Shown piece after piece: positions 40,497 through 61,778 of a stretch of 64,000 nucleotides of DNA. Position numbers and translations under genes: made by a program. The DNA lies in assembly GCA_030425385.1 (NCBI GenBank), contig JAUIAH010000003.1:62001-126000 (forward strand), given 5' to 3'. The notes under the pieces are model-generated. The model searched no databases and was not told the origin of the DNA. It saw nothing but the letters and a program-made list of their open reading frames with translations. The first letter of the stretch is position 1; each line of letters starts with the position of its first letter. The stretch comes from Verrucomicrobiia bacterium. GTDB lineage: Bacteria > Verrucomicrobiota > Verrucomicrobiia > Verrucomicrobiales > DEV007.

Positions 40497-40500
40497 TGTG

Positions 40501-40920: not shown

Positions 40921-40923
40921 TTG

Positions 40924-42690: not shown

Positions 42691-42998
42691 AGCGCGCCAT
42701 GGACCTTTCCGTTTAGACCCCAAACCTCACGGTTCCCAGCGAGCGCCACCAGCGATACTTCGCGTTCGTCGCCGGGCTCGAATCGAACAGCCGTCCCGGC
42801 AGGAATATTGAGCCGAAAGCCACGTGCTGCAGGACGATCGAAGGTGAGCGCTTCATTGACTTCGTAGAAATGATAGTGACTGCCGACTTGCACAGGGCGG
42901 TCGCCCGTATTGGCCACCATGAGGGTGAGCGTTTCGAGATCGCGATTGGCAATCAACGGCTCCGCATCGGCAAGAGGCATGATTTCTCCGGGGATCAT
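42687..42998 (-). CDS. ureB: Urease subunit beta
   Basis: 103 residues. Structural subunit around the UreC active site. [20 protein letters not shown] matches the family start, and [21 protein letters not shown] and [29 protein letters not shown] are classic. Overlaps ureA by 4 bases and ureC by 4 bases. Confidence 0.97.
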
Positions 42999-43297
42999 TG
43001 GATGGGATGGTGGACGGTGACGAGTTTGGTGCCATCGGGAAAGGTGGCCTCCGCTTGCACTTCATGAATCATTTCGGGAACGCCCTCCATGACGTCGTTT
43101 CGGGTGAGGATGCGGGTCCCTTCGTCCATCAGGGTGGCCACGGATTTGCCATCTCGAGCTCCCTCAAAGATCTCGTAGGTGATGATGGCGACGGATTCGG
43201 GATAATTGAGTTTTAAGCCGCGCGCTTGTCGCCTTCGAGCAAGGTCTGCTGCGACGACGACCATGAGCTTCTCTTGTTCTCGTGGGGTCAGATGCAT
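42995..43297 (-). CDS. ureA: Urease subunit gamma
   Basis: 100 residues. [60 protein letters not shown] is the canonical UreA sequence. Begins 12 bases after urtE, so transporter and enzyme are in one operon. Confidence 0.98.
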
Positions 43298-43309: not shown

Positions 43310-44032
43310 CTATACAGAAAGGTATTGTGAGGTAATGGCGTCATTGAGATCGGTGATGGCTCCTTTCTCCACAACGGCACCGCGCTCCATGATGGCAAAT
43401 GAGTCCGCCGTGGCTTTCGCGAAGTCCAAGAATTGTTCAACAAGCACAATACTCATCGCATAAGTCTTCTTTAAATACTGAATGGCGTCCTCGATCTGAT
43501 CAATGATCGATGGCTGAATGCCCTCGGTAGGTTCGTCGAGAAGGAGGAGGGAGGGATTGGTAAGCAGGGCTCGACCAATGGCTAGCTGTTGTTGTTGCCC
43601 CCCGGACAGCACGCCGCCTTTGCGATGTTTCATTTCACTCAACACGGGGAAAAGTTCATACACTTCTTCCAATCGCTCTTTCGCTTGGCGTTTCCCGTGG
43701 ACGCTGAGACTTACTTTAAGATTTTCCCATACCGTCAAGCCGGGAAAGATCTCGCGCCCTTGGGGAACGTACCCGATGCCCATGCGCGAGCGTTTCTCCG
43801 GCAACGATTTCTGAAGGGAAGTGCCATCGAATCGTAGATCGCCTTCGAGCACATTGACGACACCCATGATGGTCTTAAGCACCGTTGTCTTACCGACGCC
43901 GTTGCGGCCTAACAAGGCGACGACGCCCTTGCTGGGAACGACGAGATTCATGCCTCGAAGGATCAAGGACTCGTCGTAAGAAACGAGGACGCCTTCCATT
44001 TCGAGTTTGGCTTGGTCCTGGGGTTCGCTCAT
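43310..44032 (-). CDS. urtE: Urea ABC transporter ATPase UrtE
   Basis: 240 residues, LivF-type ATPase. Walker A LLGRNGVGKTTVLKT, signature LSGGQQQQLAIGRALLTNPSLLLLDEPTEGIQPS. The PSxIDQIEDAI segment is typical of UrtE. Energises high-affinity urea import with UrtD. Overlaps urtD by 4 bases. Confidence 0.95.
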   Translation of the reverse strand: MSEPQDQAKLEMEGVLVSYDESLILRGMNLVVPSKGVVALLGRNGVGKTTVLKTIMGVVNVLEGDLRFDGTSLQKSLPEKRSRMGIGYVPQGREIFPGLTVWENLKVSLSVHGKRQAKERLEEVYELFPVLSEMKHRKGGVLSGGQQQQLAIGRALLTNPSLLLLDEPTEGIQPSIIDQIEDAIQYLKKTYAMSIVLVEQFLDFAKATADSFAIMERGAVVEKGAITDLNDAITSQYLSV

Positions 44033-44820
44033 TCCGCCTCGTGTTTGGTTCTTCCCAAGTAGACTTCTTGCACCGTCGGATCGGTGGCGATTTGTGAGAA
44101 GGTCCCTTCTTTGAGGACGCTTCCTTGATGCAGTACCGTGACCTGACGGGCGATCTGCCGGACGAACACCATGTCATGCTCAACGACGATCACGCTATGT
44201 TTGCCCTCCAAGCTCAAGAGGAGTTCACCGGTGCGCTCGGTTTCCTCGTCGCTCATCCCTGCTGCCGGCTCGTCTACGAGAAGAATGCGCGGTTTCTGAG
44301 CCAAGAGCATGCCTATTTCAAGCCATTGCTTTTGCCCGTGGGAGAGACTGCCTGCCAATTCATATCGACGGTCTTGGAGCCGAATCTGATTCAGAACGGA
44401 TTCAATCTCCTCACGGTCCTCAGCAGATTCTTGATAGCATAGGGCTTTCCAAACGCCGCGGTCGCGATTGAGGGAAAGGATAAGATTCTCATACACGGTG
44501 TGCTTTGAATAGATGCTAGGAGTCTGAAACTTGCGTGCGATTCCCATGCGATTGATCTGAAACTCTTTGAGTGAAGTCAGATCAAAGTCGTGCCCGTCTG
44601 ATCGATGGTAGATAATCTTGCCAACATCGGGACGAGCCCGCCCTGTGATAAGGTCCATGAAGGTGCTCTTGCCCGCCCCATTGGGACCGATGACCGTGCG
44701 CAACTCACCATCACTGAGATAGAAGGTGAGATCATTGATTGCTTTGAACCCATCAAAAGCTTTGGTCGCACTTTCGACCGAAAGGACGAGATCAGTATCG
44801 CGATAAACAGGAGCAACCAT
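44029..44820 (-). CDS. urtD: Urea ABC transporter ATPase UrtD
   Basis: 263 residues, LivG-type ATPase. Walker A VIGPNGAGKSTFMDLITGRARPD, ARKFQTPSIYSKHTVYENL, signature LSHGQKQWLEIGMLLAQKPRILLVDEPAAGMSDEETERTGEL. These are UrtD hallmarks. Lies 7 bases after urtC. Confidence 0.95.
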   Translation of the reverse strand: MVAPVYRDTDLVLSVESATKAFDGFKAINDLTFYLSDGELRTVIGPNGAGKSTFMDLITGRARPDVGKIIYHRSDGHDFDLTSLKEFQINRMGIARKFQTPSIYSKHTVYENLILSLNRDRGVWKALCYQESAEDREEIESVLNQIRLQDRRYELAGSLSHGQKQWLEIGMLLAQKPRILLVDEPAAGMSDEETERTGELLLSLEGKHSVIVVEHDMVFVRQIARQVTVLHQGSVLKEGTFSQIATDPTVQEVYLGRTKHEAE

Positions 44821-44827
44821 GGAAAGA

Positions 44828-45976
44828 TTAGGCAGTGGCGGCGTCAGTCTGAGGGGTGGAACTCGCCCGCTGATTCCATTTGGACTTCATCTGAGCCCAC
44901 CAGCCGACCAAGCCATTGGGCAGAAAGAGAACCACGACTACAAAGAGCGCCCCCAGGATGATCAGCCAGCTTTCTGGATACGCTCGAGTGGTCCAACTCT
45001 TCAACAGATTCACAACGATGGCTCCAATCACGGGACCGAATTTCGTGCCCCGCCCGCCCACGGCGACCCAAACGACGATGTCGAGCCCTTTTGCGGGCCA
45101 CATCTCGCTGGGATTGATGATCCCGGCTTGAGGGACATAGAGGGCACCGGCCAAGCCAGCAATCATGGCGCTCAATACAAAGATAAAGACCTTGAAATGA
45201 GTGGTGGAATAGCCAGAGAAGCGAACGCGGTTCTCTGAATCGCGAATGGCTCGCTGAATCTTGCCAAGCTTGGTCTCTAGGATCCAGGCAACCAGCCAGT
45301 AGACCATCAATAATAACAGGGCGGAAGCAGCAAATAGCCATCGCGCGGTGGCATCCGTTCGAATGTCTGCCCCAAAGATAAAGCGGAAATCCGTGAACCC
45401 GTTATTGCCCCCAAAGGTGAAGTCATTTCGAAAGAACAGGAGAGCTGCCGCATAAGTCAGTGCCTGAGTGAGGATGGCAAAGTAGACTCCTTTGATACGT
45501 GATCGGAATGCGAGTGTGCCAAAGATCAATGCCACCAGACCAGGCACGAGCATGGCAGCAGCGATTGCGACGATAGGGCTATAAAACGGACGCCAATGAA
45601 TAGGGAGCTCTTCATAACCCAGGAACACCATGAAATCGGGAAGCTTACTGCCATATGAGCCGAGCTCACCGATCATGAGCATCAGATACATGCCAAACGC
45701 ATAGCCGCCGAGCGCAAAGAAGAGGCACTGTCCCAAACACAGCAAACCGGTGTAGCCCCACAATAGATTGAGGCTGATCGCAAGCACCGCGTAGCAAAGA
45801 TACTTGCCCCACACACCCAGTGTGAATCCAGATACGTGGAGCGTGGACTCCGAGGGAAACCAGGCGTTTCCCAGAGGCATTGCGATCATCACTGCCACGA
45901 TCAGCGCCATGATTCCCAGGTCACACTTCTCGCGAAGACGCAGGAGTTGAGTGGCTGATGTCAAATAATGGCCCAT
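44828..45976 (-). CDS. urtC: Urea ABC transporter permease UrtC
   Basis: 382 residues, LivM-like integral membrane permease with about ten hydrophobic segments. [49 protein letters not shown] and [32 protein letters not shown] are typical UrtC sequence. Its ATG overlaps the urtB stop (TAATG). Confidence 0.95.
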
Positions 45977-47604
45977 TAGTCGTCGAGGCTTCGGGATCGC
46001 GCGGGAAAGAGCCCTCCCGGCTTCACTTGGAGAAAGAGAATAATCATCAACAAGACAGTGATCTTCCCCATGACGGGACCTAGGATTGGTTGGAGTCCTT
46101 GGTCCACCATGCCGATCCCCATCGATGAGATTGCAGCTCCCAGCAGGTTGCCCACACCACCGACAACCACCACCATGAAACTATCGACGATATAGGTTTG
46201 TCCCATGGATGGACCCACGTTGCCGATTTGGGAAAGAAAGGCACCAGCGAGACCAGCTAGACCCGAGCCAAAGGCGAAAGTGATCATGTTCACGCGGCCT
46301 GAAGGAACCCCGAGGCACGATGCCATCTGGCGATTCTGCATGGTGGCGCGGACGTGCAAACCCCAATGTGTCTTCGTGAGAAGCAAACGCGTGCCGATCA
46401 CGACGAAAAGCACGCAGACAATGAGAGCAACACGGCTATTGGACATCGAGAAATCTCCGACACTAAGGCTTCCGGCCAACCAGGGCGGCGAAGAAACCGA
46501 TACATTCGCTGCGCCGAAGTAGAGGCGAAAGGATTGCTGAAGGATCATGGAAATGCCCCAGGTCGCCAAGAGGGACTCTAACGGCCGCGTATAGAGAAAC
46601 CGGATCAATCCGCGTTCAAGAGCCGCCCCCACAACAGCGGCGGCAAGAAACGCCAGCGGGATGGCGACTAAGAAGTAATACCCATATAAGGGCGAACCCT
46701 CGCCATAGGTAGACCCGAACCAGTTTTGCACCATGTAGGCCGTGTAGCCGCCCACGGCGATGAATTCACCATGAGCCATATTGATCACGCCCATCTGGCC
46801 AAAGGTGATCGCTAGTCCATAAGCGACAAGAAGGAGGACGGAGCCCAGGCTCAATCCTCGAAAGAGGGTGCCGATGACATCGATCAATGCTCGATGACTG
46901 TCGATCTTCTGCAGGGCCTGCTGGGAAGCTTGCTTCAATTCAGCAGTGGGTTCGGTTTCAGCGCTAACACAGCGCTCAATGAAATCACGAGCAGGAAAGG
47001 ACTTTAGGGATCCAAGGGCTTTGATGGCTTCAAGCTTCTCGGCCTCCGTACCGTTGCTGAGCTCCGAGATCCAAACAGCTTCGTTGAAAGCCCTTTTGAC
47101 TTTCGCATCGGTTTGCAAAGCCGCTCGCGCCTTGAGATCGGGAAGATATTCGGGGTTCTGACTCAGACCCAATTTCTGCGCAGATTGAATGCGCTTCCCA
47201 AGGTCAGGCGAGCTGAGATCGATGAGATCGACCATCCGTTTTAGGGTTTTGCGGAGTTTGCGAGAGGGGCGATTGACTTTGAGATTCTCTGGATTCGCCT
47301 GGGTTGCAACTCCTGTGAGAAGGTCTGTGTATTGCTCGCCGATCTTTAGAAGGACGGTGTCATCTCCATCGCGGAGTACCTGGCCGCCGCGCCATCCAGC
47401 CACGAATGTCGCGATGATCGGATCGCCATGGTTGGCCAGTTCTTCTAATGTTGAAGCACGAGAATCGTCATCTCCCAGAACTAGTTCTACCAAGAGAGCA
47501 CGGGCTTGAGAATCCTCCGTTGATTGTCCGTGGCTAGCTGGGAGAAGCGCCATCACGAAACAGTAGATGAGGACGAGATACGTTTCGCGACGTTTGCTAT
47601 TCAT
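45976..47604 (-). CDS. urtB: Urea ABC transporter permease UrtB with N-terminal helical domain
   Basis: 542 residues from ATG 47604. The first roughly 230 residues are an exported soluble region: signal peptide [17 protein letters not shown], then HEAT-like helices ([36 protein letters not shown]). This long N-terminus is usual in UrtB. The LivH-like permease follows: [41 protein letters not shown] and [30 protein letters not shown]. Forms the channel with UrtC. Confidence 0.94.
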
Positions 47605-47736
47605 GAACGCGACAGTTAGCAAGGCTTGGAAAGAAAGAGTCCTTGCCCGTTGGCGAAACCCCTTAAACCAACGGGCAAGGACAACACTAGAGATACGGCT
47701 CTAATGTCTTTCTTAATCAAGGAACACGTAGAAGTG

Positions 47737-48996
47737 TCATTGTTTTTTGAAGGTTCCCTTCAAAAATGGTTCACCAACGACATCGGCCATTCTCTCGACG
47801 ATGGCAAATTGACCGTTTTCTAACGTCTCCCCGATGTAGACTGTTTTCGTTAAGTGATGATTCTTTTGAGTGGTAACTTTGCCACCCGGTCCATCGAAGG
47901 TGATGCCAGACTCCAGAGCCTCCATGACTTTCGCGGGATCAAAGCTTTTCGCCTTCTCCACCGCGGCCTTCCATAGATAAACGCCGTTGTAGGAGAGTAC
48001 CATAGGGGAACAGGTGACGCGGTCCTCCTTGATGAGACCAGGGACACTTGTCTTGCCAAGCCAGGATTTGAAGTCCGCGATGAATTTCTTGTTCGCGGGT
48101 GTGTCGATTGACATGAAATAGGTCCAGCAGCCGAGATGACCAACAAGATCCTTTGCGGGCAGAGAGCGAAACTCATCCTCTGAAAGCGAGAATGATACCA
48201 CTGGGCAATCTTCGGAGGTGATTCCAGAAGCGGCAAATTCCTTAAAGAAAGGCACATTTGCATCGCCATTGATGGTATTGATCACACAGGCATCTCCTGA
48301 CGCCGCGAACTTCTTAATATCTGCAACGATCTGTTGGAAATCGCTATGTCCAAACGGCGTGTAGTTCCCGGCCGAGATGACTTTTCCAGAGGCATCTTTG
48401 CGAAGTCCTCCTCCGATATTCTCTACGGGCACACCTTTAGACTGAAGGTACTCGAACAGCACGAGGTTCGTTGTTTGAGGGTAGACGTAGTCTGTGCCGA
48501 TGAGGTAGAATTTCTTGAGCCCTTCTTCTAACAGGAAGTCAACAGCTGGGATGGCCTGCTGGTTGACGGCCTCCGCGGTGTAGAAGATGTTGGGTGACAT
48601 TTCTTCCCCTTCGTATTGGACGGGGTAGAAGAGAAGTCCTTTGTGTTTCTCATAGACCGGCAAGACAGATTTCCTGGAGACGGATGTCCAGCAGCCGAAA
48701 GTGACTGCGACTTTGTCTTGAACGAGCAGTTGCTCAGCTTTCTCTGCGAAGAGCGGCCAGTCAGAGGCCCCGTCGACGACGACCGGCTCGATCGTCTTGC
48801 CCATGACGCCGCCTGCCGCGTTGATCTCATCAAAGGTGAAGAGAAGAATGTCGCGTAGCGAGGTTTCGCTAATGGCCATGGTGCCACTGAGCGAATGGAG
48901 AACGCCAACTTTGACCGTCTCGGCGGTCAAAGTGCTGTTGGCCAAGCCAAGGGTGGCCAGTAGCAGAAGTGCTTTATGAATGATTCGTTTACCCAT
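47737..48996 (-). CDS. urtA: Urea ABC transporter substrate-binding protein UrtA
   Basis: 419 residues from ATG 48996 ([26 protein letters not shown] signal peptide). Type I periplasmic binding protein: [93 protein letters not shown] and [22 protein letters not shown] are characteristic of UrtA. Captures urea at low concentration. Follows the outer-membrane protein gene by 13 bases. Confidence 0.95.
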
Positions 48997-49009
48997 GGGT
49001 ATGCACGAG

Positions 49010-49834
49010 TTAGAAATCGATGCCGATGCCGAAATTGGCGGTGAGAAAGCTATCGTCTGGATTGTTGGGAATGACGTCGTCATCGGTCACATAATAGGTG
49101 AACCCTCCGTGAAGATTCCACGCGCCGAGTTTCTCGTCGATCATTGCCAAAGGAAGGGTGGCATTGAGTCCCAAAGAGGCATAGGCGAATCCACTATCAC
49201 CACCGTGGAAACCATCCGTGGCACCAGCGATATTGAGCGGAATGGCAAACTCGACGGGGCCAGCTTCGAAACCGTGCTCGAAGCCTAGCACGGCGACGAG
49301 TCCGGTGTCGCCACCGGACGCGCCTTCGGTGAGGCGGTTATGGAGTGTGAGGCTAGGGCTGAAGGGAGCATCAATGCCAAGAATGACATCGAGGATGCGT
49401 TCCGACTCACCGCCGTAAAGCCATTCCTGGTAGAGCACGGTCACATCGACTGGACCAAGACCAAAGCCGACGCCAGCCCACACATCGATTTCTTGAATAC
49501 TTCCTCCAATATCAGAAACAGCATTGTCATTCACATCCCACCAGGTGCCAAGAATGAAGGAAACATTCTCGGTAATCTGAAAGGTCAATTCGAGGGAAGG
49601 ATTGAAGAGGGCATCGCTCAAGTCATCACCCGCTCCCCAGACGTCTGCGCCGTAAGAAATGAAATGAGAGTTGTAGTCAAGGGAAAGAGAACCTGATACG
49701 GCTGAGCCGAGAATACTTCCTCCGTCGGTGACGGGCGTTGGTAGTGGATCGACAAGTGATGGGACGTCAAATTCGCCCGCCATGGCAATGCCAGGAGCAA
49801 TGAGGAGACTAGCCGCAAGAGGTATGAACTTCAT
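49010..49834 (-). CDS. Outer-membrane beta-barrel protein, first gene of the urt-ure operon
   Basis: 274 residues with signal peptide [22 protein letters not shown]. The remainder alternates in the manner of membrane beta-strands ([57 protein letters not shown]) and ends in [10 protein letters not shown], a C-terminal aromatic as in outer-membrane barrels. As the first gene ahead of urtA it is probably a diffusion pore or receptor supplying urea or a related compound across the outer membrane; that is inferred from position only. Confidence 0.75.
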
Positions 49835-50150
49835 TTGATAGGTTGCTTGGATAAGTTGGATATAGGGTGACAGGATTGGTTATCCGCGTCGGTTGGAAGG
49901 AGAGCATGCTGGGTGCCAAGTGTGTGTGAGATATGCAATCTGCAAGGGGATCCCTCGGCCTGTGGAACAGCCGTCCTACTCTAAAAACAATTGGTCCTGA
50001 GAGGGTTGCAGGGCTTTCCTGCTTCCAAGGATAATTTGCGTAATATTCGGTATGGATGGAGCAAGGAATCGATATGATTCCATTCCATGCGCCAATGTTG
50101 ATAACCAATGAATACTGGTAGGCGGGTATGATGAAGTCGCAGGCGCCGTA
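49835..50150 (-). other. Regulatory region between allophanate hydrolase and the urt-ure operon
   Basis: About 315 bases. It holds a sigma-54-type promoter at 49904-49919 with an inferred leader of about 58 bases to the barrel-protein start. A short GCAGG/CCTGC hairpin lies near 50008-50022 but without a convincing T tract, so the end of the upstream operon is not defined. Confidence 0.5.
49904..49919 (-). promoter_or_regulatory. Sigma-54 promoter of the urt-ure operon
   Basis: Minus-strand TTGGCACCCAGCATGCT matches the sigma-54 consensus TTGGCACG-N4-TTGCW with two substitutions. The invariant GG (49917-49916) and GC (49905-49904) are exactly 10 bases apart. Predicted start near 49892. Confidence 0.75.
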
Positions 50151-51896
50151 TTACGAATGCGCCTGATGCGTGAGGTATGTCCGCCAACTTCCCAGGTGGG
50201 TCACCTCAGTAGCGCCTTGAAGGGCGTAGGGTTCACAGAGAAACCCTGATACATTATCACCACTAGCTGTCTCAATTCGACCAATACCCAAAGGTGCGGG
50301 AATGGCGCTCACGAATGAGCCAAAGGCTTCCGTTGATAAGGCGTAGATTTCAATCTCGATCGTGCCTCCCTGCTCTGATTCGTCTCGAATCATTCCTGGC
50401 TTGGCTGGAGAGGTGCTGGGAAGAGCGTAGAGCCGATAGTGGGGAGAAGTCGTGGTGCGTTCGACAAGGACCGCGCCCCGATCTTCCAGCTGGTGATGCA
50501 GGGGAAGCCCATGAAGGTGTGCGCCACAGACGGCAAGTCGACAGGGCAGATCGTGAAGGGGTGGATGGATCGATGCCAAGGATTCCTCCCGGAGCAACGC
50601 AGCCGATTGGAGGAGAATCGGTTCGCTGAAGGCGGGCGCAGCGAGTGTGACTCCAAAGGGACGGCCATTCTCCATGATGGACGCGGGAACAGCGATGGCT
50701 GCTAGATCTAGCAGATTCATGAAGTTGGTGTAGTAGCCAAGGTTGCTGTTCAATCGCACGGGATCATGGCGCACATCCTCGATGGTGTAGGTCGTGCCCA
50801 CCGTAGGAGTGACTAACAAATCGGCTGTATCCCAGAAGGTCTCCAAGGCGCGTCGTTGCCGCTGCAACTGATAGTAGGCTTGATAGACCTCGATGGCGCT
50901 GAAGTTGCGTCCGTTCTCGATGATTTGGCGAGTGGTGGGATGAAGAGCCTCGGGATGGGATTCGATGAATGGTTGGATGGCGGCGTAGCGTTCGGCAACC
51001 CAGGGCCCTTCGTAGAGAAGGCGTGCGATCTCAAGAAACGGGGAGAAATCGATCTCAGTTAGGGTCCAATCGGAGGCTGCTGCGCGTTCACAAAAGGACT
51101 GAAAGGCTGCCTTGGAATGGGGATCGTCGAAGAACTCCCATTGATCGCGGCGAGGGATGGCCACGCGAAGGGGGGAAGGATTCGTTTGGGGAATGGGTGA
51201 GGGTGGGCGACTGTAGGGATCCTGCGAATCGAACCCTTGAGCCACCTGCAGCACTGCATGGGTATCGTTCACAGTGGTGGCGAAGATCGACACACAATCG
51301 AGGGTGCGGCACGCGGGCACCACGCCCTTGGTGCTCAGAAGACCACAGGTCGGTTTGAGGCCAATGAGATGGTTCAAGGCGGCGGGAACGCGTCCGGAGC
51401 CAGCTGTGTCCGTTCCAAGGGCGAAGCTCACAAGGCCCTTGGCGACGGCCACGGCTGAGCCTGAGCTTGAGCCACCAGGAATGAGTTTGGGATCGAAGGC
51501 GTTGCCTGGCACTCCGTAGGGGCTTCGTACGCCAACCAATCCGGTGGCGAATTGATCAAGGTTCGTTTTTCCAATGGGAATGGCTCCCGCCTCGATCAAT
51601 CGCTGGACGACGGTGGCTGAGCGAGCGGGGGTATAGGCAAACTCTGGGCACGCAGCGGTGGTGGGGACGCCTTCGAGATCAATGTTATCCTTGATGGCAA
51701 AGGGAATACCGTAGAGGGGAAGATCCTCCTGACCTTGGATGCGGTCAACGTAGGTTTGCAGCTCTTCTCGAGTGAGCCGATGGATCCAAATCGCGGGATC
51801 TTCGCGATCAGCGCGCTCTGTGATGAGATCTAGCAGAGTGGCGAGAGTTTCCTTGCCGCTGCGGAGGTCGGATTGAAGTTGAGAAATGGTCATCAC
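50151..51896 (-). CDS. atzF: Allophanate hydrolase
   Basis: 581 residues. It hydrolyses allophanate (or carboxyurea from guanidine breakdown) to ammonia and CO2. The N-terminal amidase-signature domain has [25 protein letters not shown] with the catalytic Lys, the [32 protein letters not shown] Ser-Gly-rich segment with the cis-Ser and nucleophile Ser, and [22 protein letters not shown]. The C-terminal domain of AtzF follows. Its start overlaps the carboxylase stop by 4 bases. Together with the carboxylase it forms a split urea amidolyase-type pair. Confidence 0.94.
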
Positions 51897-54800
51897 GTTT
51901 TCACATGGGCCACCGTTTGGCCGGGGGAGATGGTGGCTCCTGGGAGGACGAGGATTCTTGAAATGGTGCCTTGGTAAGGTGATTGAATGGTCATTTCCAT
52001 CTTCATACTTTCAAGGATGGCGATGGCTTGGCCTTCCTCGATGGCGTCACCCTCGGTCACACAGAGTTTCCAAAGGTTCCCGGCGATGGGGGACTCCAAT
52101 GGGAGAGTGCCCGGAGGGATCGATTCTGAGTCCTCGGGTGGCTGGAAGTCTTCGACGACTTCTTCGGCATCTTCCCAGCGCTGCCGCTCTGCATGGAAAG
52201 CCTTCTGTTGTCGATGGCGGAAGGCCGCGATGGCTTGGGCATGGGTCTCAAGAAACTGCTGGTATTCTGTGAGGCGAAAGTGGCTCTCCTCGACACGGAT
52301 CGTATAGCGGCCTCGCAAGAAATCTGATCGGATAGTGGCGAGTTCCTTCGTGGTGACGGGAAAGAATCGAATCTGATCAAAGAATCGCAGCAACCAGGGC
52401 TTACCGGGAGTGAAGTGCTCAGTGGTGCGAAAGCGATTCCACATTTGGAGGGTGCGGCCGACGAACTGATATCCGCCTGGGCCTTCCATTCCGTAAATGC
52501 AGAGATAGGCCCCTCCGATCCCAACCGCATTCTCTGGAGTCCACGTTCTGGCAGGGTTGTATTTGGTGGTCACCAAGCGATGACGCGGATCTAACGGTGT
52601 CGCAACGGGTGCCCCAAGGTAGACATCACCCAAGCCGAGAACAACATAGCTGGCATCGAAGACCGCCTGGTAGACATCCTCTACGCAGTCGAGGCCATTG
52701 ATGCGACGAATAAATTCAATGTTGCTCGGATACCACGGAGCATTTGGGCGTACGGTGGCATGGTATTTCTCAATCGCTTCCTGTGTGGATGGATCGTCCC
52801 ATGATAAGGGGAGATGCACGATTCGCGATTCAACCTCGTAGTCCTCGACGGGTGGAAGCGCTCGAGCGAGTTGGCACACCTTCTTAACGATGGAGTTCGA
52901 TTGTTCCGTCTCATCAAAGTGCACTTGGAGAGAGCGAACGCCTGGAGTGAGATCGAGGACGCCCGGAATCTTGGCTGCCTGCAGACATTCATAAAGCTGA
53001 TGCACTCGTAGTCGCAATCCGATATCGAGCGTGGGGGGGCCAATCTCAATCAAGACATTGCGATCACCAGACCGCCGAAAGACCATATCGCCCTCTGTGG
53101 CCATGATAGGATTCTCAAGCGTGGCGGTGGCAAGACGGAAGCGGACGCGATCGCCGGCGCTGAGTTGCCCCATCTTCCATAGCTGATCTTCCACGATCGT
53201 GAAAGGGCACACAAAGCCCCCGAGGCTGGGACCATCTGGACCCAGAATGACGGGCATGTCGCCAGTGAAATCGATCGCTCCGATGGCATAGGGATTGTCG
53301 TGAATATTTGACGGGTGCAACCCTGCCTCGCCCCCGTCCTCACGCGCCCAACCTGGTCTGGGACCGATGAGACGAATACCGGTGCGAGCGGAATTGAAAT
53401 GGACTTCCCAAGCGGTGGCAAGAAAGGTCTCGATATAACTTTCTTCAAAGAACTCAGGGGCACCGTGAGGTCCATAGAGGACCTCGATCTCCCAAGTGGA
53501 CTCATAATGAGGAATGCGGCTCGGATCCAGTGACCAGATGGGATCACATGCGGGCGTTACTTGGTCAAATGATAGAATATCGCCCATGCGTAGAGGGCGA
53601 CCAGCATGCCCTCCAAACGCACCCAATGCGAAGGTCGATCGGCTGCCGAGATAGGGAGGAACATCAATGCCTCCTCGAATGGCGAGGTAGGCTCGGGCAC
53701 CAGCACCTATCACATTGCCTAAACGAAGCACCTGGCGCGATCGGGCGGGATACGCCTTCCACGGCTCGAGCGGTGTCTCATCGAGGGTGGCTCCCATGTC
53801 GGCTCCCGTTAGAGCGATCACCGTATCGTGGTGAAACTGGAGGGAAGGCCCCGATAACGTGATCTCAAGGGCCGCAGCATCTTTGGGATTGCCAACGAGT
53901 TCATTGGCCAAGCGAAAGGCTACGCTGTCCATGGGGCCCGAAGGTGGGACCCCTACTTCCCAATAGCCGATTCTGCCAGGATCATCATGGATGGTGGTTA
54001 GGGTGCCAGGAGAGAGAACCTCGAAGGTGGGGGAGGCCGGCGAGAAGTGATCAAGGACATGGGTCGCAACTTTGCCGGAAGTGAAGACCTCAGATTCCAT
54101 GATGGCCTGCAAATAGGCGCGGTTGGTGGTGATACCATCGATACGTGTTTCTGACAGGGCCGTGGCCATGGCGGAGACCGCCTCGGCGCGTGTGGGTGCG
54201 TGGACCACGATCTTCGCAAGCAGGGGATCATAGTGTGGCGTCACTTCCAAACCGTTGCTGATCCATGTGTCGACCCTGACATGATCAGGAAAGTCGACGT
54301 TGGTAAGGAGCCCAGTGGATGGTTGAAAGTCTTTGTGTGGGTTCTCGGCATAGACACGGGTTTCGATGGCGTGTCCTTGAGGAGTAGGGGAGACTTGGAT
54401 GGGTTCGTCGGCGGCGATCCGCAGCATCATTTCGACGAGATCAATGCCAGTGACGGCCTCGGTGATGCCATGCTCCACCTGTAGGCGCGTGTTCACTTCC
54501 AGGAAGTAGAAGGCTTCGCTTGAAGCATCATAAAGGAACTCAACCGTCCCAGCGGAGCGGTAGTGGACCTCTTGCAGAAGGCGAGTCGCCGCTTCGAATA
54601 ACGCGTTTCTAGTCGTCGAAGCGAGACCTGGAGCGGGTGTCTCCTCGACGACTTTCTGATGGCGTCGCTGGAGAGAGCAATCGCGTTCTCCTAGGGTCCA
54701 GATGTGACCTTGGCCATTGCCGAGCGCTTGGACCTCGACGTGCCGTGCATCAGTGACATACTTCTCGATAAAGATATCTTGGTTGCCAAAGTTGGCGCCT

Positions 54801-55360
54801 GCCAAACGACGCACCCGTTCATACTGCTCGGTAAGAGCCTCGGGATCCTCACAGATGGCCATGCCAATCCCGCCGCCGCCACCGGAACTTTTAAGCATCA
54901 CCGGGTATCCAATAGACGCTGAGATTTCTAGGGATTCTGTGAGACTTTGTAAGACGCCCGATCCCGGCAGCAGAGGGACATTCGCACGTTCGGCGAGTTG
55001 TCGAGCTTCATGTTTGAGAGCAAACGCGCGCATGTGCTCTGGAGCTGGTCCGATGAAAGCCAACCCGGCAGCTTCACATGCCTGGGCGAAGTCCGGGGAT
55101 TCACTTAGCAGCCCGTAGCCTGGATGGATGGCTTCTGCTCCGGTCGCCTTAGCCACCTCGATGATCGTCTCTTGTTGGAGATAGCTTTCTGAGACGGTTG
55201 CCTTCCCTATGCAGTGTGCGTCGTCGGCTTCACTCACATGGAGAGAATCGCCATCCGCCTCCGAATAGATAGCGACGGAAGAGATTTGGAGGTGTTGCAG
55301 GGTGCGAATGATACGGCACGCAATCTCACCGCGATTCGCGATCAGGACTTTTGAGAACAT
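51893..55360 (-). CDS. Biotin-dependent urea/guanidine carboxylase
   Basis: 1155 residues. Order: biotin carboxylase ([75 protein letters not shown]), then KipA/KipI-like carboxyltransferase ([40 protein letters not shown]), then the biotinyl domain with LESMKMEM near residue 1120. It carboxylates urea to allophanate or guanidine to carboxyguanidine. Two DUF1989 proteins just upstream (now known as carboxyguanidine deiminase subunits in such clusters) and a separate urease argue for guanidine as substrate. The acceptor-site segment [17 protein letters not shown], near residue 690, is where urea and guanidine enzymes should be compared. Confidence 0.93.
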
Positions 55361-55367
55361 AAAGGTA

Positions 55368-56006
55368 TCAGTCCCAGATGGCGACTTGCACGGGAGTTGG
55401 GTTGTACCCGTTGCAGGGATTGTTCAATTGAGGGCAATTGGAGATCAGAGCGAGCACATCCATGGCCGCGCGCATTTCTACGTAGCGTCCTGGTGCGGAA
55501 ATGCCATCCTCAAAGGTGAGCTTGCCTTCGGGGGTGACCGGAACATTCATAAAGAAATTGATGTTGCAGGTGATATCGCGCTTTCCGAGGCCATGCCCCC
55601 AGGCCGCAAGGCCACAGATAAAGCTATCGCGACACGCGTGCATGGATTCTTTCTCCAACGCGTAGCGCATCGTATTGCTCTCGCGCGAGCAGGCTCCTCC
55701 CAGGGTGTCGTGGCGTCCGCAGGTATCGGCTACGATCGTCATCAGGGTGTTGCCTTCCGTTGAGATGAGTGCACTTCCCGTAGTGAGATAGAGATGTGCT
55801 TGTCTTTGAATCGTGTCAGACGCGCTATAGCGTTCGACAGGGTCGTGAGCATTGTAGAAGAGCGTGTCGGCAGCTTGATTACCTTCTAGATCAATGATGC
55901 GGAAGGTTTGGCCGCGATGGATCTCGTGCGTCCAATGATCGCCGGCCTCAATGATGGTGCTATAGCTGGCATCGGCGACTTCCAGGGAGCTTTCTGTCAT
56001 GCGCAT
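55368..56006 (-). CDS. DUF1989 urea carboxylase-associated protein 2 (carboxyguanidine deiminase subunit)
   Basis: 212 residues, DUF1989. Segments [94 protein letters not shown] and [27 protein letters not shown]. Long annotated as urea-amidolyase associated protein 2; work on guanidine use assigned the DUF1989 pair as the deiminase that converts carboxyguanidine to allophanate. 7 bases before the carboxylase and 10-base overlap with its partner. Confidence 0.88.
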
Positions 56007-56716
56007 AAGTGATAGTAATCCTCTGTATTGATGAATGCGCGTGCGTTCTCAGGACACGAGCATCGGCAGGGATCATCAGGCCCAGGTGCTTCAGTGGTGA
56101 AGACGCTGAGATTCACAGGTTTGGGATCGTACTCAGGGTTGGGGTCGAGCGGGTGCTGGCAGGTGTTGAGTATCACCAGCGTGTCCATTTCGAAGCGTAG
56201 ATCGATCACGGCACCTGCTTTGGCGGCTTGCGGATGGAAGGTGAGGTTCCCTTCGTGATCGGTCGCGACCTTGCTGAAGAAATTGAGATTGGGAACGAGA
56301 TCGCGTTTTCCTAATCCCCATTTCGCCAATTCAATGATAAAATTGTCTTTCCCATTTCGATAAAAGGCGTTGCGGGCCTCTTGATAAGTTCTGCGTCCAT
56401 ATTTGCGTGCAATCGTGGCGGCATCGGAACAGCCACACACCGTATCATGCCAGCCGGCTGTATCCTGGGTGATCGAACAGAATATTCGTCCCATGTCGGA
56501 GTGGAGACAGTAGGGAGCTGTGAGATAGAAGATCTGCTGACCTTTCAAGGTATCCGGCATGTTGTAGCGCTCCAGGTGTTCATGCGCGTTGTAGAGCAGC
56601 ATGGAGACGTTGGCGCCGCCCTCGCTATCGGTGAGTCGGAGCGTCTTCCCACGACTGATCACTTTGGACCACATGCCGCCACCGTGGATCGTGGTATCAT
56701 AGAGTGGGAGATTCAT
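55997..56716 (-). CDS. DUF1989 urea carboxylase-associated protein 1 (carboxyguanidine deiminase subunit)
   Basis: 239 residues, the paralogous DUF1989 partner: [88 protein letters not shown] and [19 protein letters not shown] Cys-rich end ([25 protein letters not shown]) may bind metal. Its start overlaps the NikR-like stop by 20 bases. Expected to act with the second DUF1989 protein. Confidence 0.88.
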
Positions 56717-57203
56717 AGGGGACTTGCTGATCGAGGTGGCTTTGGGGAAGTGGGTGAATGGGGGGCATGATCTGCGATGCCATGGTGAGTTTTCCAGTGC
56801 GCACGCCTTTCCTGCTGATGAATCGATTGGCGAGGGCCCGCAATTTCCGGCCAGGACCTTGGACGATCATCACCTCCATCACGTGATTGTCTTCCAGCAA
56901 CACATTCAACGTGCTAATCACTTCATCGATATGTTCTCGCTGCAGTTCAGCCAGCTCTTTCTGGATATTGCCTTTGGTCACATCGTACACCAACGTGATG
57001 ACAGCGGCGGTGATGCGATTGCCTGTTTCTTGTTCTAACTGACTATCCCGAGCCATGATGATCTCGGCGATGGCCTGAGAGCGATTCTCAAACCCCTGTT
57101 TCTTGATGATCCCGTCCAACGCCTGATAGACGGCACCGGGAAGGGAAACGCTAATCCGCTTGGTGACGTTGGAATACAGCTTGTCGTCGTCAGGATCAGT
57201 CAT
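56697..57203 (-). CDS. NikR-like ribbon-helix-helix regulator lacking nickel ligands
   Basis: 168 residues. An N-terminal ribbon-helix-helix ([31 protein letters not shown]) is followed by a NikR-type ACT-like domain ([59 protein letters not shown]). Aligned by eye to E. coli NikR, the ligands His76, His87, His89 and Cys95 become Arg89, Asn100, Leu102 and Val108, so nickel sensing by the known site is impossible. A 27-residue tail follows. It heads the DUF1989/carboxylase/allophanate hydrolase operon and probably represses it and the ABC operon, answering to the pathway substrate or to another metabolite. Confidence 0.85.
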
Positions 57204-57226
57204 GCGTGTGAGAATTCATCTGGAAA

Positions 57227-57233
57227 GTAATAC
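57227..57233. promoter_or_regulatory. Single half-site of the putative NikR-like operator
   Basis: GTAATAC at 57227-57233, placed 10 bases downstream of the sigma-54 GC of the NikR-like operon, the position occupied by the first half of the full palindrome in the ABC operon. No good second half is present, so autoregulation would rest on a weak site. Confidence 0.35.
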
Positions 57234-57242
57234 CGCTAGGTC

Positions 57243-57258
57243 GCAGTTTCTGTGCCAT
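57243..57258 (-). promoter_or_regulatory. Sigma-54 promoter of the NikR-like/carboxylase operon
   Basis: Minus-strand ATGGCACAGAAACTGCG: GG (57256-57255) and GC (57244-57243) separated by 10 bases, TGGCAC box intact. Predicted start near 57231, about 28 bases before the regulator start codon. Confidence 0.65.
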
Positions 57259-57397
57259 CAGAGAGCCGGTTCCCCACGAGGCGAGACATTCACATCCAGC
57301 GGTTGATGGCGGGTAGACACACCCACTCCCGGCCCTTCCGGGCGGATGGGCTGTTGTAGGGATCTGTTAGCGGGATGATGAACGGTTCCGCTGGGAT
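57259..57397. other. Intergenic region between SDR and the NikR-like operon
   Basis: About 140 bases; with the promoter, 194 bases lie between the genes. I looked for a guanidine-I riboswitch on the minus strand (CTAGGG...CCGGGAGA pattern) and did not find one. A short CCCGG/CCGGG stem near 57328 is the only structure noted. Confidence 0.4.
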
Positions 57398-58195
57398 CTA
57401 GCTTTGCCATTGGCCGTCCACCCATTCGAGCGGTGGCGAAAGGTCGTAACGGTTCCAGCCCGCAGAAAGGCCGCCGTCTACTGGAATCACGGTGCCTGTG
57501 ATGAACCGTGCGGCGTCGGAAGCTAGGAATTCGTAGAGGGGGGCAATGTCGGCGGGAAGGGCTGCGCGGCCGAGAGGCGTGCGTTCCTCGATGAATCGAA
57601 TCTCAGGATTGTTCGGAATCGTGGTAACGGCGGGCGTGAGAATCAATCCGGGAGCCACGGCATTGACGGTGATTTGCTTGGGGGCGAGTTCCATAGCACC
57701 CACTCGTGTGAGATGATCCACGGCCGCTTTCGAAGCCGCGTAGCTGGGACAATTGGGAGCTCCAATAGACCCAACAAAGGAACTTGTATTGATCACGCTG
57801 CCACCTTCTGAGAGATATTTCTTGGCCAGTTGCAAGCCATAGAAGACAGCGTGACTATTGGTGTGAAAGACACGGTCCAATAGCTCGGGAGTCGTATCTT
57901 CCAAGGGGATGCCGTGAGGTTGAATCGCGGCGTTATTGACAATGATATCGAGTTTGCCAATATCCTCGATGACGGCTTCGACGGCCGCGGCGAACCCTTC
58001 GGCATGGGCGACATCGGCTCGTGTGAAATGACAGTCTCCGGACTCCGGCGCTTTCACATCGGCAATGGCCACACAGGCCCCTGAATCCGTGAATCGTTGC
58101 ACAATCTCTGCTCCCAGCCCCGCACTTCCTCCTGTCACCAGCGCGACTTTTCCCTCGAGCGTGCGCGCGGCGTATTCTTCTTTTAAACGTACCAT
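57398..58195 (-). CDS. Short-chain dehydrogenase/reductase
   Basis: 265 residues, classical SDR: cofactor loop TGGSAGLGAEIVQRF, NNAAIQPHG, catalytic Ser in NTSSFVGSIGAPN, YAASK (Tyr-x-x-x-Lys), and NAVAPGLILTP. The Asp after beta-2 (IADVKAP) predicts NAD(H) preference. Substrate unknown. It has its own sigma-54-type promoter inside the guanidine/urea island, so it is probably nitrogen-regulated and may act on an N-containing or alcohol by-product. Confidence 0.85.
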   Translation of the reverse strand: MVRLKEEYAARTLEGKVALVTGGSAGLGAEIVQRFTDSGACVAIADVKAPESGDCHFTRADVAHAEGFAAAVEAVIEDIGKLDIIVNNAAIQPHGIPLEDTTPELLDRVFHTNSHAVFYGLQLAKKYLSEGGSVINTSSFVGSIGAPNCPSYAASKAAVDHLTRVGAMELAPKQITVNAVAPGLILTPAVTTIPNNPEIRFIEERTPLGRAALPADIAPLYEFLASDAARFITGTVIPVDGGLSAGWNRYDLSPPLEWVDGQWQS

Positions 58196-58228
58196 CGGTT
58201 ATTCATGAGTTTAATAGAGGAAAGGGTA

Positions 58229-58244
58229 GCAAGCTGCATGCCAT
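58229..58244 (-). promoter_or_regulatory. Sigma-54 promoter of the SDR gene
   Basis: Minus-strand ATGGCATGCAGCTTGCT: TGGCATG-N4-TTGCT differs from the consensus at one base of the -24 box, with GG (58242-58241) and GC (58230-58229) exactly 10 bases apart. Predicted start near 58217, 22 bases before the SDR ATG. Confidence 0.65.
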
Positions 58245-58333
58245 GCAGTATGTGGAGATCAATTCTCCTTGCATGTGTTTGTGCTGGGGCGATGATACGC
58301 GCGGTCTCTGGAAGCACATCATCTACCAGAGAT

Positions 58334-59248
58334 TTAATAGACTTCGTCACCCACAGGCGTCATTCGAAGCATGGGCAAGCGATCCTCCTCGGTGGAGTCG
58401 CCAGGGGGATGGATGAGTTCTTCAAGACGCGCTTTGGCGGCGAGAAACTCAGGGGAGAGGAATTGCCGCGGGCTGCGAGGATGTGGGACAGGATTCTCCA
58501 ATAGTTCATTCACGCGCCCTGGATTGCGGTCGAGAACCAACACGCGATCGGAGAGATAGACTGCCTCGTCGAGGTCGTGTGTGATGAAGATCACGGTGAT
58601 ATCGACCTGCTTCCAAATCTGCAATAAATAGGATTGCATCTGAGCGCGTGTCTGCGCATCCAAGGCTCCAAACGGCTCATCCATTAAGAGAATGCGCGGC
58701 TGATTGGCGAGCGCTCTCGCAATGGCTACCCGCTGTTTCATTCCGCCAGATAGCTGGTGAGGATACACATGAGCAGATTCGATCAGGCCGACCAATTCGA
58801 TCCACTGCAGGGCTTCGGATTCGGCGACAGCTTGGCGATGTCCCGTCATCTTGAGACCGAACATCACGTTCTCTTTGACGGTCAGCCAGGGGAACAGCGT
58901 ATATCCTTGAAAGACCATGCCGCGATCGGGACCTGGTCCGTTGACGGCTTTTCCATCGACGAGCAATTCGCCTTCGGAAGCCGTCTCCAATCCTGCTAGG
59001 ATACGTACTAATGTCGATTTCCCACAGCCGGACGCACCAATCACGCATAAAAACTCGCGTCGGTGGACGGTGAAACTGACATCTTGCAAGGCGGTCACGG
59101 CTCCCTGAGGGGATGCAAAGCGTTTGCTGATCCGTTTCACGTCGAGGATGAGGTCCCGTTGGTTGAGCCGGGCAAAGCGGGCCGCGACTTCAGGCGATTG
59201 TTCCGTGTAGGAGGGCAACTTGAGCTCGGGTGAGATCATGACATTCAC
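58334..59248 (-). CDS. ABC transporter ATPase (nitrate/taurine/urea-type family)
   Basis: 304 residues, SsuB/TauB/NrtD-type. Walker [16 protein letters not shown]-loop [21 protein letters not shown], signature [41 protein letters not shown]-loop [17 protein letters not shown]. An N-terminal extension of about 30 residues precedes the fold. Overlaps the permease by 4 bases. With the permease and the lipoprotein receptor it should import the cluster substrate, plausibly guanidine or a guanidino/urea compound. Confidence 0.93.
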
Positions 59249-60606
59249 GTGCTTGCCGGAAGCGTCTTGGGTTGGAAAGTGCGTCTAAGACGAAGAGGGT
59301 TCACTTTGGATAGCACACGGGCGGCTCCTCGGGCGCTCGCGCTGGCTCCTTCCTCGGTATAGGGAAAGAGCACCCCGCGAAACCAAGCCAGGAATTGATC
59401 GGTGAGGAATCCGGTGAGACCGATGAGGAGAATGATTGGGTACACATGATCGAAATGAAATCGGCGTCCCTGAGTATCGATGATTTCAGTGAGACCTGCC
59501 TTGACGCCTAGCAGTTCGGCGATGACGAGCCAGGTCCATGCCCAACCCAAGAGGATGCGAAGGTCGTTATAGAGATTGGGAAGGATTCCTGGAATGACGA
59601 CACGGGTGATCAATTGACGGCGATTGGCGCCCAAGGTTTGAGCCGCATCGAGCAAAGCCGGATCGAGCATGCGCGTCGTGTTGGCCACCATCAGGATGAG
59701 TTGAGGCAGCGTGCCGAGAAAGACCAGGCCGACTTTGGGGGCATCATAAATGCCGAATAGGGCGATCAACAAGGTTCCAAAGGCGGGGGCGGGCATGTAG
59801 CGGAAGAAATCGACGAAGGGTTCAATCAAGCGAGAGAAGAACGCGAACGTGCCACACAGGAGAGCGATCGGTACTCCGACGATACAGACAAAGAAGAAAC
59901 CCAGGGCAATGGTGCGCAGAGAGACCCCGTAGCGCTTCCACACATGCAGTTCACCCAATTCAGATTCCCCTCGGAAATCTTCCCAACCGCGCATAATGAC
60001 TTCATGAGGCGCTGGAAGAAAGGCGGGTCGCTTGACTTCCAATTGTCCTTGGGGGATCAATTGAGCCAAGGGATCAGAAAGGAAGTTATTGGAGTCGTAA
60101 TGAGGCGACACGTTCCGCAGAGCTGCCCAATTGCGAATAATCAGGCGCTGATTCTCGGCAGAGATAGGGGCGCTCTCGGCTCCTTCCGCGATCGTTTGCC
60201 AGAGTTTATAAAGGGCAGCGTAGTCGTTCTCTTTGTCGGCGGTCAACCAGCCCTGGGTCACCGCGATGGGCGCTAGACTTCGGAGAATCCGTTTGTTGGT
60301 GCGCCGTGTGGCAGCGGGAGTGATTCCGGGAGTTAGTTGGGCATTGTCCCCGCGTACAGCCTCTTGAAAGGCGGCGAAGCGATCTGATGCCATGTGATCC
60401 CCGGGCACATAAACGGTGGGAAACGCATCGCTTTCCGTCGTTGAGGAAAGAGTCAGTCGAATCTGAGAATCCCACACAGGCAGGTAGGCGATCAGTGCCC
60501 AAAGGCACAATGGGAGCACGAACGAGCCTAGCATGAGGAGGCGCGACCGCTCACGGGAGAGCGATCGGCCCACTGCAAACCAGGACTCTTGTTCGCGCGC
60601 CGCCAT
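59245..60606 (-). CDS. ABC transporter permease with large N-terminal periplasmic domain
   Basis: 453 residues, much longer than the usual 250-280 of SsuC/TauC permeases. After a first membrane segment ([20 protein letters not shown]) there is a soluble, probably periplasmic region of about 170 residues ([58 protein letters not shown]). The core permease then has [19 protein letters not shown], the EAA-like loop [38 protein letters not shown] and final helices. The extra domain may help substrate capture. Ends 4 bases into the ATPase gene. Confidence 0.88.
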
Positions 60607-60617
60607 GCTGTTGTCTG

Positions 60618-61709
60618 TTACTTCATGGCTTTGGCAACTTCCTTCGTAAGGGTACGGTCAAAGTAGGCCTTATAATCTTGCGCGTCTTGATACACTTCGA
60701 ACTTCACATTGAAAGCATCTGAGATCTCAGAAGATCCATATACCGATGCCAACCCGGGAGCATTGCGCCAAGCAACCAGAGCTTCATCAAGGGAGAGGAT
60801 GTGCGTGCCATCTAAGAAAGGCTCGTATTCGTCAGGAGTCACGCCCACGCGTGCAGAGAGGATGGCCAGGACGTCATCTGTGTTGTCTTCATTCTTCATG
60901 TAGTCGACAATGCGATACCAAACTTTGGTTACTTTCACCCAATCCTCTCGGCGAGCATTCAAGCTCTCTTCCGTGACAAAGAGACAATCGTAGATCAATC
61001 CGGGAATATCGGCCGAGGTGTAGATTGGTTTGGATCCCGGTACCTGTTTTAACGCCATCCCGGAACTCGGTTGCCAGGCGCAGATAGCGGCAATTTCATC
61101 GGACTTAAGGACCTGGGGGGTCTCATCCGTTGGGGTGTTCACAATGGTGATATCGCCATCCGACAGGCCGTTGACTTCAAGCGCTTTGAGCACTAGCAAA
61201 TGCGGGACAAACCCTTCCTCAAGTGCGACTTTCTTACCCTTGAGTGCAGTCACCGATTCGATCCCAGGCTTCGCCACGAGCATGTCATTGCCGTTGGAGT
61301 AATCATTGATCACAATCCCGATGGACGGTTTCGCCGTGGCTCCGGTCACCAAGGCGTCGCCATTGGTCATGCAGACGGCATCTAACTTGCCAGCGCCATA
61401 GGCTTCCATGGAGGCGACATAGTCCATCCATTCGAACTTTGCCTGGACGCCTTCCTCGGCAAACCAGCCCTTCTTGATGCCGATTTCCCAAGCGACCCAT
61501 CCAGGCCAGTCGCTATAGCCGATGGTGAGCATCTCTCCTTTCGACGTGGGAGGAGGAGTGGGCGTTGGTGTGGGTTCAAGCTCGGGAGTGGCCGGTTCGG
61601 GAGTGCTGGTCGTGGGCGTTTCCTTCTTGGAGCACGAACTCCCCAATAAAGTGAATGCTGCGATAGTGATAGTGATGAGGACGGAGTCAGGCTTGATCTT
61701 CATAGACAT
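60618..61709 (-). CDS. ABC transporter substrate-binding lipoprotein (NMT1/SsuA-like)
   Basis: 363 residues. Lipoprotein signal [17 protein letters not shown], then a Pro/Thr linker ([20 protein letters not shown]). A type II binding fold of the NrtA/SsuA/THI5 kind follows: [64 protein letters not shown] codons at 61709 and 61703 are both possible starts; no strong ribosome site is seen. First gene of the transporter unit. Related receptors near urea carboxylase genes are thought to bind guanidine or similar compounds; the ligand is inferred. Confidence 0.88.
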
Positions 61710-61726
61710 GAGGGATGACCGCGCGT

Positions 61727-61754
61727 GTAATACTCTTGGCGGAATTGGTATTAC
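61727..61754. promoter_or_regulatory. 28-bp palindromic operator at the ABC operon start site
   Basis: GTAATAC (61727-61733) and GTATTAC (61748-61754) form a perfect 7-base inverted repeat with a 14-base spacer, total 28 bp. The E. coli NikR site is GTATGA-N16-TCATAC, also 28 bp. The palindrome begins 9 bases downstream of the sigma-54 GC and covers the predicted transcription start near 61751, a repressor position. The likely ligand protein is the NikR-like regulator of the same island. Confidence 0.65.
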
Positions 61755-61762
61755 CTAAAGGA

Positions 61763-61778
61763 GCACGTTCGGTGCCAA
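61763..61778 (-). promoter_or_regulatory. Sigma-54 promoter of the ABC operon
   Basis: Minus-strand TTGGCACCGAACGTGCT: the same TTGGCACC box as the urt-ure promoter, GG (61776-61775) and GC (61764-61763) exactly 10 bases apart. Only about 22 bases separate it from the upstream gene, so any activator-binding sites would lie within the glycosyltransferase gene. Confidence 0.75.

Follow-up and report, generated by a model that had tools for sequence, protein, structure and literature searches.

A predicted sigma-54 nitrogen regulon of Verrucomicrobiota with a NikR-like protein as candidate guanidine-pathway sensor

Results

Gene content of the island

The DNA analysed here, referred to as the window, is a stretch of 64,000 nucleotides from a Verrucomicrobiia bacterium (assembly GCA_030425385.1, contig JAUIAH010000003.1, positions 62,001 to 126,000). 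On its minus strand lies an island of nitrogen genes in four units, each headed by a sigma-54-type promoter. As judged from its sequence, the island combines the guanidine carboxylase pathway and an associated ABC importer with a urea importer and urease (Table 1). Taking together the features described below, we consider it probable (roughly 0.8) that these genes form a nitrogen-scavenging regulon under sigma-54 nitrogen control, on which a repurposed NikR serves as a guanidine-pathway sensor. The genome comprises 8.0 Mb in 74 contigs, and the nearest named relatives, 13 loci (L004-L016), all belong to the Verrucomicrobiota.

The assignment to guanidine metabolism relies on several features. 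Asp at the positions corresponding to 1330 and 1584 of the Kluyveromyces lactis enzyme is described, in the available part of the source, as the mark of guanidine versus urea carboxylases (PMC11410670). In our alignment the carboxylase of the window has Asp at both positions, and Asp at 1330 was found in all 44 readable loci of the 47 examined from Verrucomicrobiota, about six of which repeat a contig already counted. The two DUF1989 subunits and the allophanate hydrolase that the guanidine carboxylase pathway requires are present as well. The gene for the binding protein of the importer (E<=1e-40) occurs in 35/35 UAAP1-bearing genomes and in one other among the 114 genomes searched; guanidine is the presumed cargo of the importer.

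Table 1. Promoter sites, operators and genes of the island (positions refer to the window)
Feature	Position	Strand	Remarks
Sigma-54 -24/-12 site, importer unit	61762..61777	-	TGGCACCGAACGTGCT; matrix score 13.8, rank 5
Sigma-54 site before SDR gene	58228..58243	-	TGGCATGCAGCTTGCT; score 17.3, rank 1, best of the window
Sigma-54 site, NikR-like/guanidine carboxylase operon	57242..57257	-	TGGCACAGAAACTGCG; score 11.6, rank 10
Sigma-54 site, barrel/urt/ure unit	49903..49918	-	TGGCACCCAGCATGCT; score 14.2, rank 4
Predicted NikR-type operator GTAATAC-N14-GTATTAC	61727..61754	.	just 3' of the importer -12 element; perfect, 14/14
Predicted degenerate NikR-type operator	57206..57233	.	12/14; between promoter and start codon of the NikR-like gene
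NMT1-type substrate-binding protein, putative guanidine importer	60618..61709	-	TIGR03427 158 bits, below cut-off 333.9
Importer ABC permease	59245..60606	-	profile match
Importer ABC ATPase	58334..59248	-	profile match
Short-chain dehydrogenase (SDR)	57398..58195	-	profile match
NikR-like regulator	56697..57203	-	none of the four nickel ligands; sole PF08753 match in the genome
UAAP1 (DUF1989), putative carboxyguanidine deiminase subunit	55997..56716	-	TIGR03425 347.1 bits, above cut-off
UAAP2 (DUF1989), putative second carboxyguanidine deiminase subunit	55368..56006	-	TIGR03424 335 bits, above cut-off
Guanidine carboxylase (family name urea carboxylase)	51893..55360	-	Asp697 at K. lactis 1330
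Allophanate hydrolase	50151..51896	-	profile match
First gene of the urea unit (barrel gene of the initial annotation)	49010..49834	-	no family match; homologues precede urtA in many relatives
UrtA, urea-binding protein	47737..49083	-	profile match
urtB, urtC, urtD, urtE	43310..47622	-	
Urease ureA, ureB, ureC, an unassigned open reading frame, ureF, ureG, ureD	38345..43297	-	

Sigma-54-type sites at the unit heads

The initial annotation of the window had proposed four minus-strand GG-N10-GC boxes as sigma-54 promoters, one at the head of each transcription unit. All four are present where they had been placed, two of them have TTGGCACC in common as claimed, and each lies at most 150 nt from the called start codon of the first gene of its unit. 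Their GG and GC dinucleotides, 10 nt apart, stand in a TGGCAC-N5-TTGCW-like context. We scored the window with a 16-position matrix built from the published sigma-54 consensus, which reads TGGCACG-N4-TTGC in the available part of the source (PMC3224663), with frequencies set by hand. Among about 128,000 positions on both strands the four boxes rank 1, 4, 5 and 10. Equally good matches in coding DNA, which the annotation had named as a reason for doubt, do exist in part: seven coding sites score above 11, two of them 16.1 and 15.3. The score alone is thus not decisive, because similar scores occur in coding DNA; the decisive feature is position, which still separates the four boxes. The intergenic sites above 11 are exactly these four, each at most 150 nt before a start called with a simple codon-usage script of our own instead of a standard gene finder.

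For comparison, 960 kb of other DNA from the same genome (48 stretches, two of them picked for amt genes, one for rpoN and two flanking the window) with 667 called genes yielded four comparable sites before three genes, one of which is an amt gene. At this rate, the Poisson chance of finding at least four sites among the 53 genes of the window is 3e-4. The 240 kb surrounding the genome's 12 PF00158 matches contain eight comparable sites, including one before rtcB beside the RtcR gene.

Recurrence of the promoters in relatives

The sites at the importer, NikR-like and urea units recur in related genomes (all counts include the genome under study). A sigma-54 site of at least 12.8 precedes the importer binding-protein gene in 29/30 cases (for example 16.0, 13.9 and 15.0 in L088, L093 and L094). 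The sole miss (L191, genome G027) has a 259-aa frame before the importer and, about 80 nt before that frame, a site of 15.7. For the urea unit, 21/23 scored urtA orthologues (at least 60% identity) have a unit-head site; in loci with a divergent barrel gene or none, this site is found no more than 300 nt from the urtA match. One exception (L205) has no site and the other (L220) just 343 nt of upstream DNA. Two further urtA loci (L226, L227), both beginning at contig ends, were left unscored. The head of the NikR-like gene carries a site of at least 11.0 in 24/31 cases (18/19 in one scorable set, 6/12 in another). Gene order bears on some of the remainder: in L093, L163 and L171 the NikR-like gene stands behind the importer in the same orientation and the importer has a strong site, and L169 has the gene divergent from an importer-to-hydrolase operon bearing a site of 15.1. 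Outside the island, the gene for a GlnII-type glutamine synthetase is preceded by a sigma-54 site in 29/29 scorable cases, one further gene being cut by a contig end (sample of 30 from the 90 genomes that have it). As a control, UAAP1, an internal gene, was scored in the same way and gave 0/21 above 6.5.

The 102 sites collected at a threshold of 10.5 read TGGCAY-N6-TGCT. T at -14 is present in all of them, as the matrix favours; T at -11 is found in 97 and A in one, though the matrix weights A and T nearly equally, and T at -15 occurs in just 16/102. That the boxes are chance matches, as one might suspect in view of the seven coding matches above 11, is hardly credible given their position at all four heads, their recurrence in relatives and the empty UAAP1 control, and we rejected a chance origin on these grounds.

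The status of the site before the SDR gene is less certain than that of the other three. In genome G011 a Rieske oxygenase gene preceding an SDR of 64% identity has a site of 18.2 at its head, and the same Rieske gene, located at a contig end in genome G001, has one of 15.1. These ring-hydroxylating oxygenase genes with a head site lie at L264:376-1734 and L265:654-2012; the window has the SDR and its site without the Rieske gene. A sigma-54-like site of 18.2 was also noted at L266:6802-6817, before a gene (5895-6674) with a weak outer-membrane beta-barrel match. On the same L266 stretch, the P-II gene has a site of 13.1 with T at -13, like that of rtcB.

Sigma-54 machinery and nitrogen genes of the genome

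The initial annotation had called for a search for rpoN and an NtrC-type activator. A single rpoN gene is indeed encoded in the genome; rpoN was detected in 105 of the 114 genomes searched, this one included, with two copies in some. None of the 12 PF00158 matches of the genome lies on the contig of the window. The eight strongest comprise seven receiver-AAA-helix-turn-helix proteins, one of which (L102) has an incomplete AAA match, and one RtcR. These are the eight activator-type proteins of the genome; the one nearest to NtrC (C13) falls below the curated family cut-off. This NtrC-like protein was matched in 77/114 genomes, again including this one, at E<=1e-150. There is one P-II gene, and one of the three amt genes has a sigma-54 site, with a score of 15.9. 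As for a type I glutamine synthetase, the PF00120 search matched the GlnII-type gene only, and this candidate was dropped. Taken together, rpoN, the activators, the three sites recurring at unit heads and the sites of GlnII and one amt gene support the proposal of the annotation that the island is a nitrogen-controlled regulon.

Instead of nitrogen status, a dedicated guanidine- or urea-sensing activator could control the sigma-54 units. Such an arrangement would fit the empty search for NtrC sites and the subthreshold NtrC-like protein, but no PF00158 match lies on the contig of the island, and the fact that GlnII and an amt gene share the site hints at nitrogen status in general as the signal. 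We therefore regard a dedicated activator as unlikely. The search for shared upstream elements led elsewhere: gapped 4-mer pairs in 100 upstream regions revealed none common to the promoter sets, and the pairs emerging from the NikR set pointed to a NikR-type operator.

A NikR-type operator on the guanidine promoters

Two of the four promoters, those of the importer and the NikR-like gene, carry a predicted operator that, like the guanidine specificity of the carboxylase and the missing nickel site of the NikR-like protein, is new relative to the initial annotation. When scored over its 14 half-site positions, the operator reaches at least 11 in 31/32 and at least 12 in 26/32 regions upstream of NikR-like genes; in the sole miss (L090) the upstream region is cut by a contig end. 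On GlnII promoters no operator of at least 11 was found (0/29), urt promoters gave 1/23 at this level and 0/23 at a minimum of 12, and on riboswitch-type sigma-54 promoters the count is 0/15. A spacer of N14 gives 21/23 at 12 or above, N15 gives 10 and other spacers at most 2. The N15 matches seem to reflect a third half-site. Such a half-site (GTATGAC or GTATGAA, spacer N15) stands before the operator upstream of the NikR-like gene in L078, L080, L081 and L092, which suggests a tandem array. With position counted from the initial T of TGG, most loci have the start of the operator at -32, +2 or +23 to +25, so that it abuts, overlaps or closely follows the promoter. In 1.264 Mb of the genome under study we found six operator matches of at least 12. 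The intergenic ones are those at the importer and NikR-like promoters only, and the importer operator is the only perfect match.

Five loci that had no part in motif discovery have operators of 13-14 beside a sigma-54 site. Four of these (L005, L006, L007, L012) are from Puniceicoccaceae, Opitutaceae or Coraliomargarita and the fifth (L021) is from a Porticoccaceae metagenome-assembled genome. L009 is similar to L007, and L007 has an extra copy on the promoter of a 445-aa gene preceding UAAP1, distant from the NikR-like gene. A single operator of 12 beside a weak sigma-54 site was seen in L010. In the gammaproteobacterial guanidine operon of L021 (L021:6666-6715), a NikR-like gene, a perfect operator and a sigma-54 site occur together at nearly the spacing of the importer promoter in the window; horizontal transfer of this module is possible.

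A NikR-like protein without the nickel ligands of NikR

By sequence and fold, the regulator is NikR-like, with a ribbon-helix-helix (RHH) DNA-binding domain and an ACT-like C-terminal domain. In a renewed comparison confined to the Foldseek matches, NikR structures lead (2bj9, Z 16.3, root-mean-square deviation 10.8 over 133 residues; 2y3y, Z 15.8, deviation 1.0 over 83 residues), and ACT domains rank below them. The nickel ligands of Escherichia coli NikR, which we take to be His76, His87, His89 and Cys95, are all missing, as the protein of the window has R, N, L and V at positions 76, 87, 89 and 95. Among 33 members, Cys95 is kept in none, His89 in 3, His87 in 23 and His76 in 8, and no sequence in a 26-member alignment, which includes loci from beyond the order, has all four ligands. 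A C-terminal LPPIH-like motif recurs among the members (PQVH in L007 and L012). The loss of these ligands, together with a NikR-type operator on guanidine promoters, appears to be a new observation.

One could argue that the protein is still a metal sensor coupling the nickel supply to the urease and guanidine genes, in view of its clear homology to NikR in sequence and fold, the NikR-like spacing of its operator and the adjoining nickel-dependent urease. Yet the ligand pattern just described (Cys95 gone in 33/33 and His89 in 30/33 members) speaks against this reading, as does the presence of the operator on guanidine promoters and its absence, at 12 or above, from the urea unit. A metal sensor thus appears quite improbable, albeit the protein may have a different metal site.

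Guanidine riboswitches and the NikR-like gene

No guanidine riboswitch was detected in the window at the Rfam gathering threshold, and none reached the Rfam threshold in 20 UAAP1 loci with 1.5-kb flanks or in 20 importer, 7 long and 9 further loci (sets that overlap in genomes); a diverged riboswitch may escape Rfam. Outside the Verrucomicrobiota, 21 of 28 loci were examined. Among the 19 NikR-negative ones, 17 have a Guanidine-I riboswitch, L037 has Guanidine-II only and L026 has none. The two NikR-positive loci, L021 and L030, both lack Guanidine-I, L021 having a Guanidine-II match at exactly the threshold. For these 21 loci, Fisher's test gives p=0.03; when 17 Verrucomicrobiota loci are added it gives 1e-8, but those loci are related and not independent. 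It is important to note that 15/18 Guanidine-I aptamers (L017-L044, mostly Proteobacteria) have a sigma-54 site 61-98 nt upstream. The common logic therefore seems to combine sigma-54 with a second, guanidine-specific layer, made of RNA in one group of loci and of protein in the other.

From this contrast we tentatively propose, at somewhat less than even confidence, that free guanidine is sensed by the NikR-like protein, a former nickel regulator that gave up its metal site, was recruited to the guanidine pathway and replaced the riboswitch in Verrucomicrobiota while the sigma-54 layer was kept, and that the module was transferred to a gammaproteobacterium (L021). Alternatively, the ligand might be a pathway intermediate (carboxyguanidine or allophanate, for example), or the protein might work as an activator, since the operator is frequently located upstream of -24. 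The Guanidine-I contrast, on the other hand, best fits guanidine itself, and those operators that start at +2 and +23 lie over the promoter or behind it. On balance we find this second possibility rather doubtful and keep free guanidine as the preferred ligand.

Further features of the window

Long unassigned N-terminal parts precede the family matches of UrtB (45976-47622, match from residue 252) and of the importer permease (match from about residue 189-219). An 80.5-bit match to the Rfam family 5_ureB_sRNA (RF02514) was found at 42195-42523 (+), antisense to the ureC frame, with counterparts in L180 and in L088/L178 (one place). It may reflect protein-coding conservation or a real antisense RNA. 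An open frame of 1884 aa extends over 11049-16703 (-).

Discussion

The data can be accommodated in a model with two layers of control. In the first layer, sigma-54 RNA polymerase would bind the TGGCAY-N6-TGCT-like sites heading the four units, and these predicted sites are strongly supported by sequence. Activation would fall to an enhancer-binding protein, with the conserved NtrC-like protein as the likeliest candidate, and would presumably occur when nitrogen is short; we propose nitrogen shortage as the signal because a site of this type also precedes GlnII and one amt gene. In the second layer, confined to the guanidine units, the NikR-like protein would bind GTAATAC-N14-GTATTAC over or beside the promoter and block it until guanidine or a pathway intermediate lifts the block. 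The sequence comparisons support the operator, while repression as the sign of regulation and the nature of the ligand are presumptive. The NikR-like protein would thereby fill the role that, in Proteobacteria, the Guanidine-I riboswitch has behind sigma-54 sites. Only the first layer would act on the urea unit and GlnII, and the absence of the operator from both fits a general nitrogen layer plus a guanidine-only layer.

Several observations weigh against this model. Regarding the first layer, the protein nearest to NtrC scores 454.2 bits versus an NCBIfam cut-off of 558.6, and the GlnII-type glutamine synthetase 369.4 bits, under its family cut-off of 500. The remaining two amt genes peak upstream at only 7.3 and 5.6. 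A search for an activator binding site, made for perfect 6-nt dyads before six promoters of this genome and for gapped 4-mer pairs in 100 upstream regions, gave nothing common to the promoter sets. The rtcB site, a would-be positive control, has T for G at -13 and can serve only as a loose one. No sigma-54 site was found before four SDR homologues of 47-53% identity. Five of the 31 NikR-like heads score below 9 (L093, L161, L163, L166, L169) and two further ones only 9.7 and 10.3, and gene order offers no explanation for the weak heads of L161, L166 and L170. Regarding the second layer, only 14/30 importer promoters have an operator of at least 11. L016 has two operators of 12, neither beside a sigma-54 site, and the NikR-positive L030 is without a match of at least 12. 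Activation in place of repression is conceivable because many relatives have the operator upstream of -24.

Nitrogen genes are classical targets of sigma-54. Like the NtrC regulons of Proteobacteria, the system described here has -24/-12 sites before glutamine synthetase, ammonium transporter and urea genes, in a genome with rpoN, P-II and an NtrC-like protein; it differs in its Verrucomicrobiota host, in that its activator and the binding sites of the activator are only putative, and in its TGGCAY-N6-TGCT sites. With operons controlled by Guanidine-I or Guanidine-II riboswitches it shares the guanidine carboxylase enzymes and the ABC importer, but a NikR-like gene and its putative operator are found here and a known guanidine riboswitch was not found in these loci. 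The consensus operator of E. coli NikR is GTATGA-N16-TCATAC. The predicted NikR-like regulator resembles nickel regulators of this type in its RHH and ACT-like fold and in an operator of two inverted half-sites at NikR-like spacing (14-16 nt), and departs from them in the lost ligands, the LPPIH-like motif, the half-site GTAATAC and the guanidine operon context.

In its available part, a review from 2025 presents guanidine-dependent gene control as exerted via riboswitches only (PMC12186494). In the available text of a cross-phylum survey of sigma-54 regulons, Verrucomicrobiota are mentioned for motility and the word guanidine is absent (PMC12316311). Among the matches listed in an open-access literature search by title and abstract, we found neither a NikR-like regulator of guanidine genes nor the regulon described here.

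If a protein regulator has indeed taken the place of a riboswitch, this would represent a natural experiment in which RNA and protein sensors were swapped while the pathway and the sigma-54 promoter logic stayed the same. The model further leads one to expect a sigma-54 nitrogen regulon in the Verrucomicrobiota, among them Coraliomargarita sp. SDUM461004 (L007).

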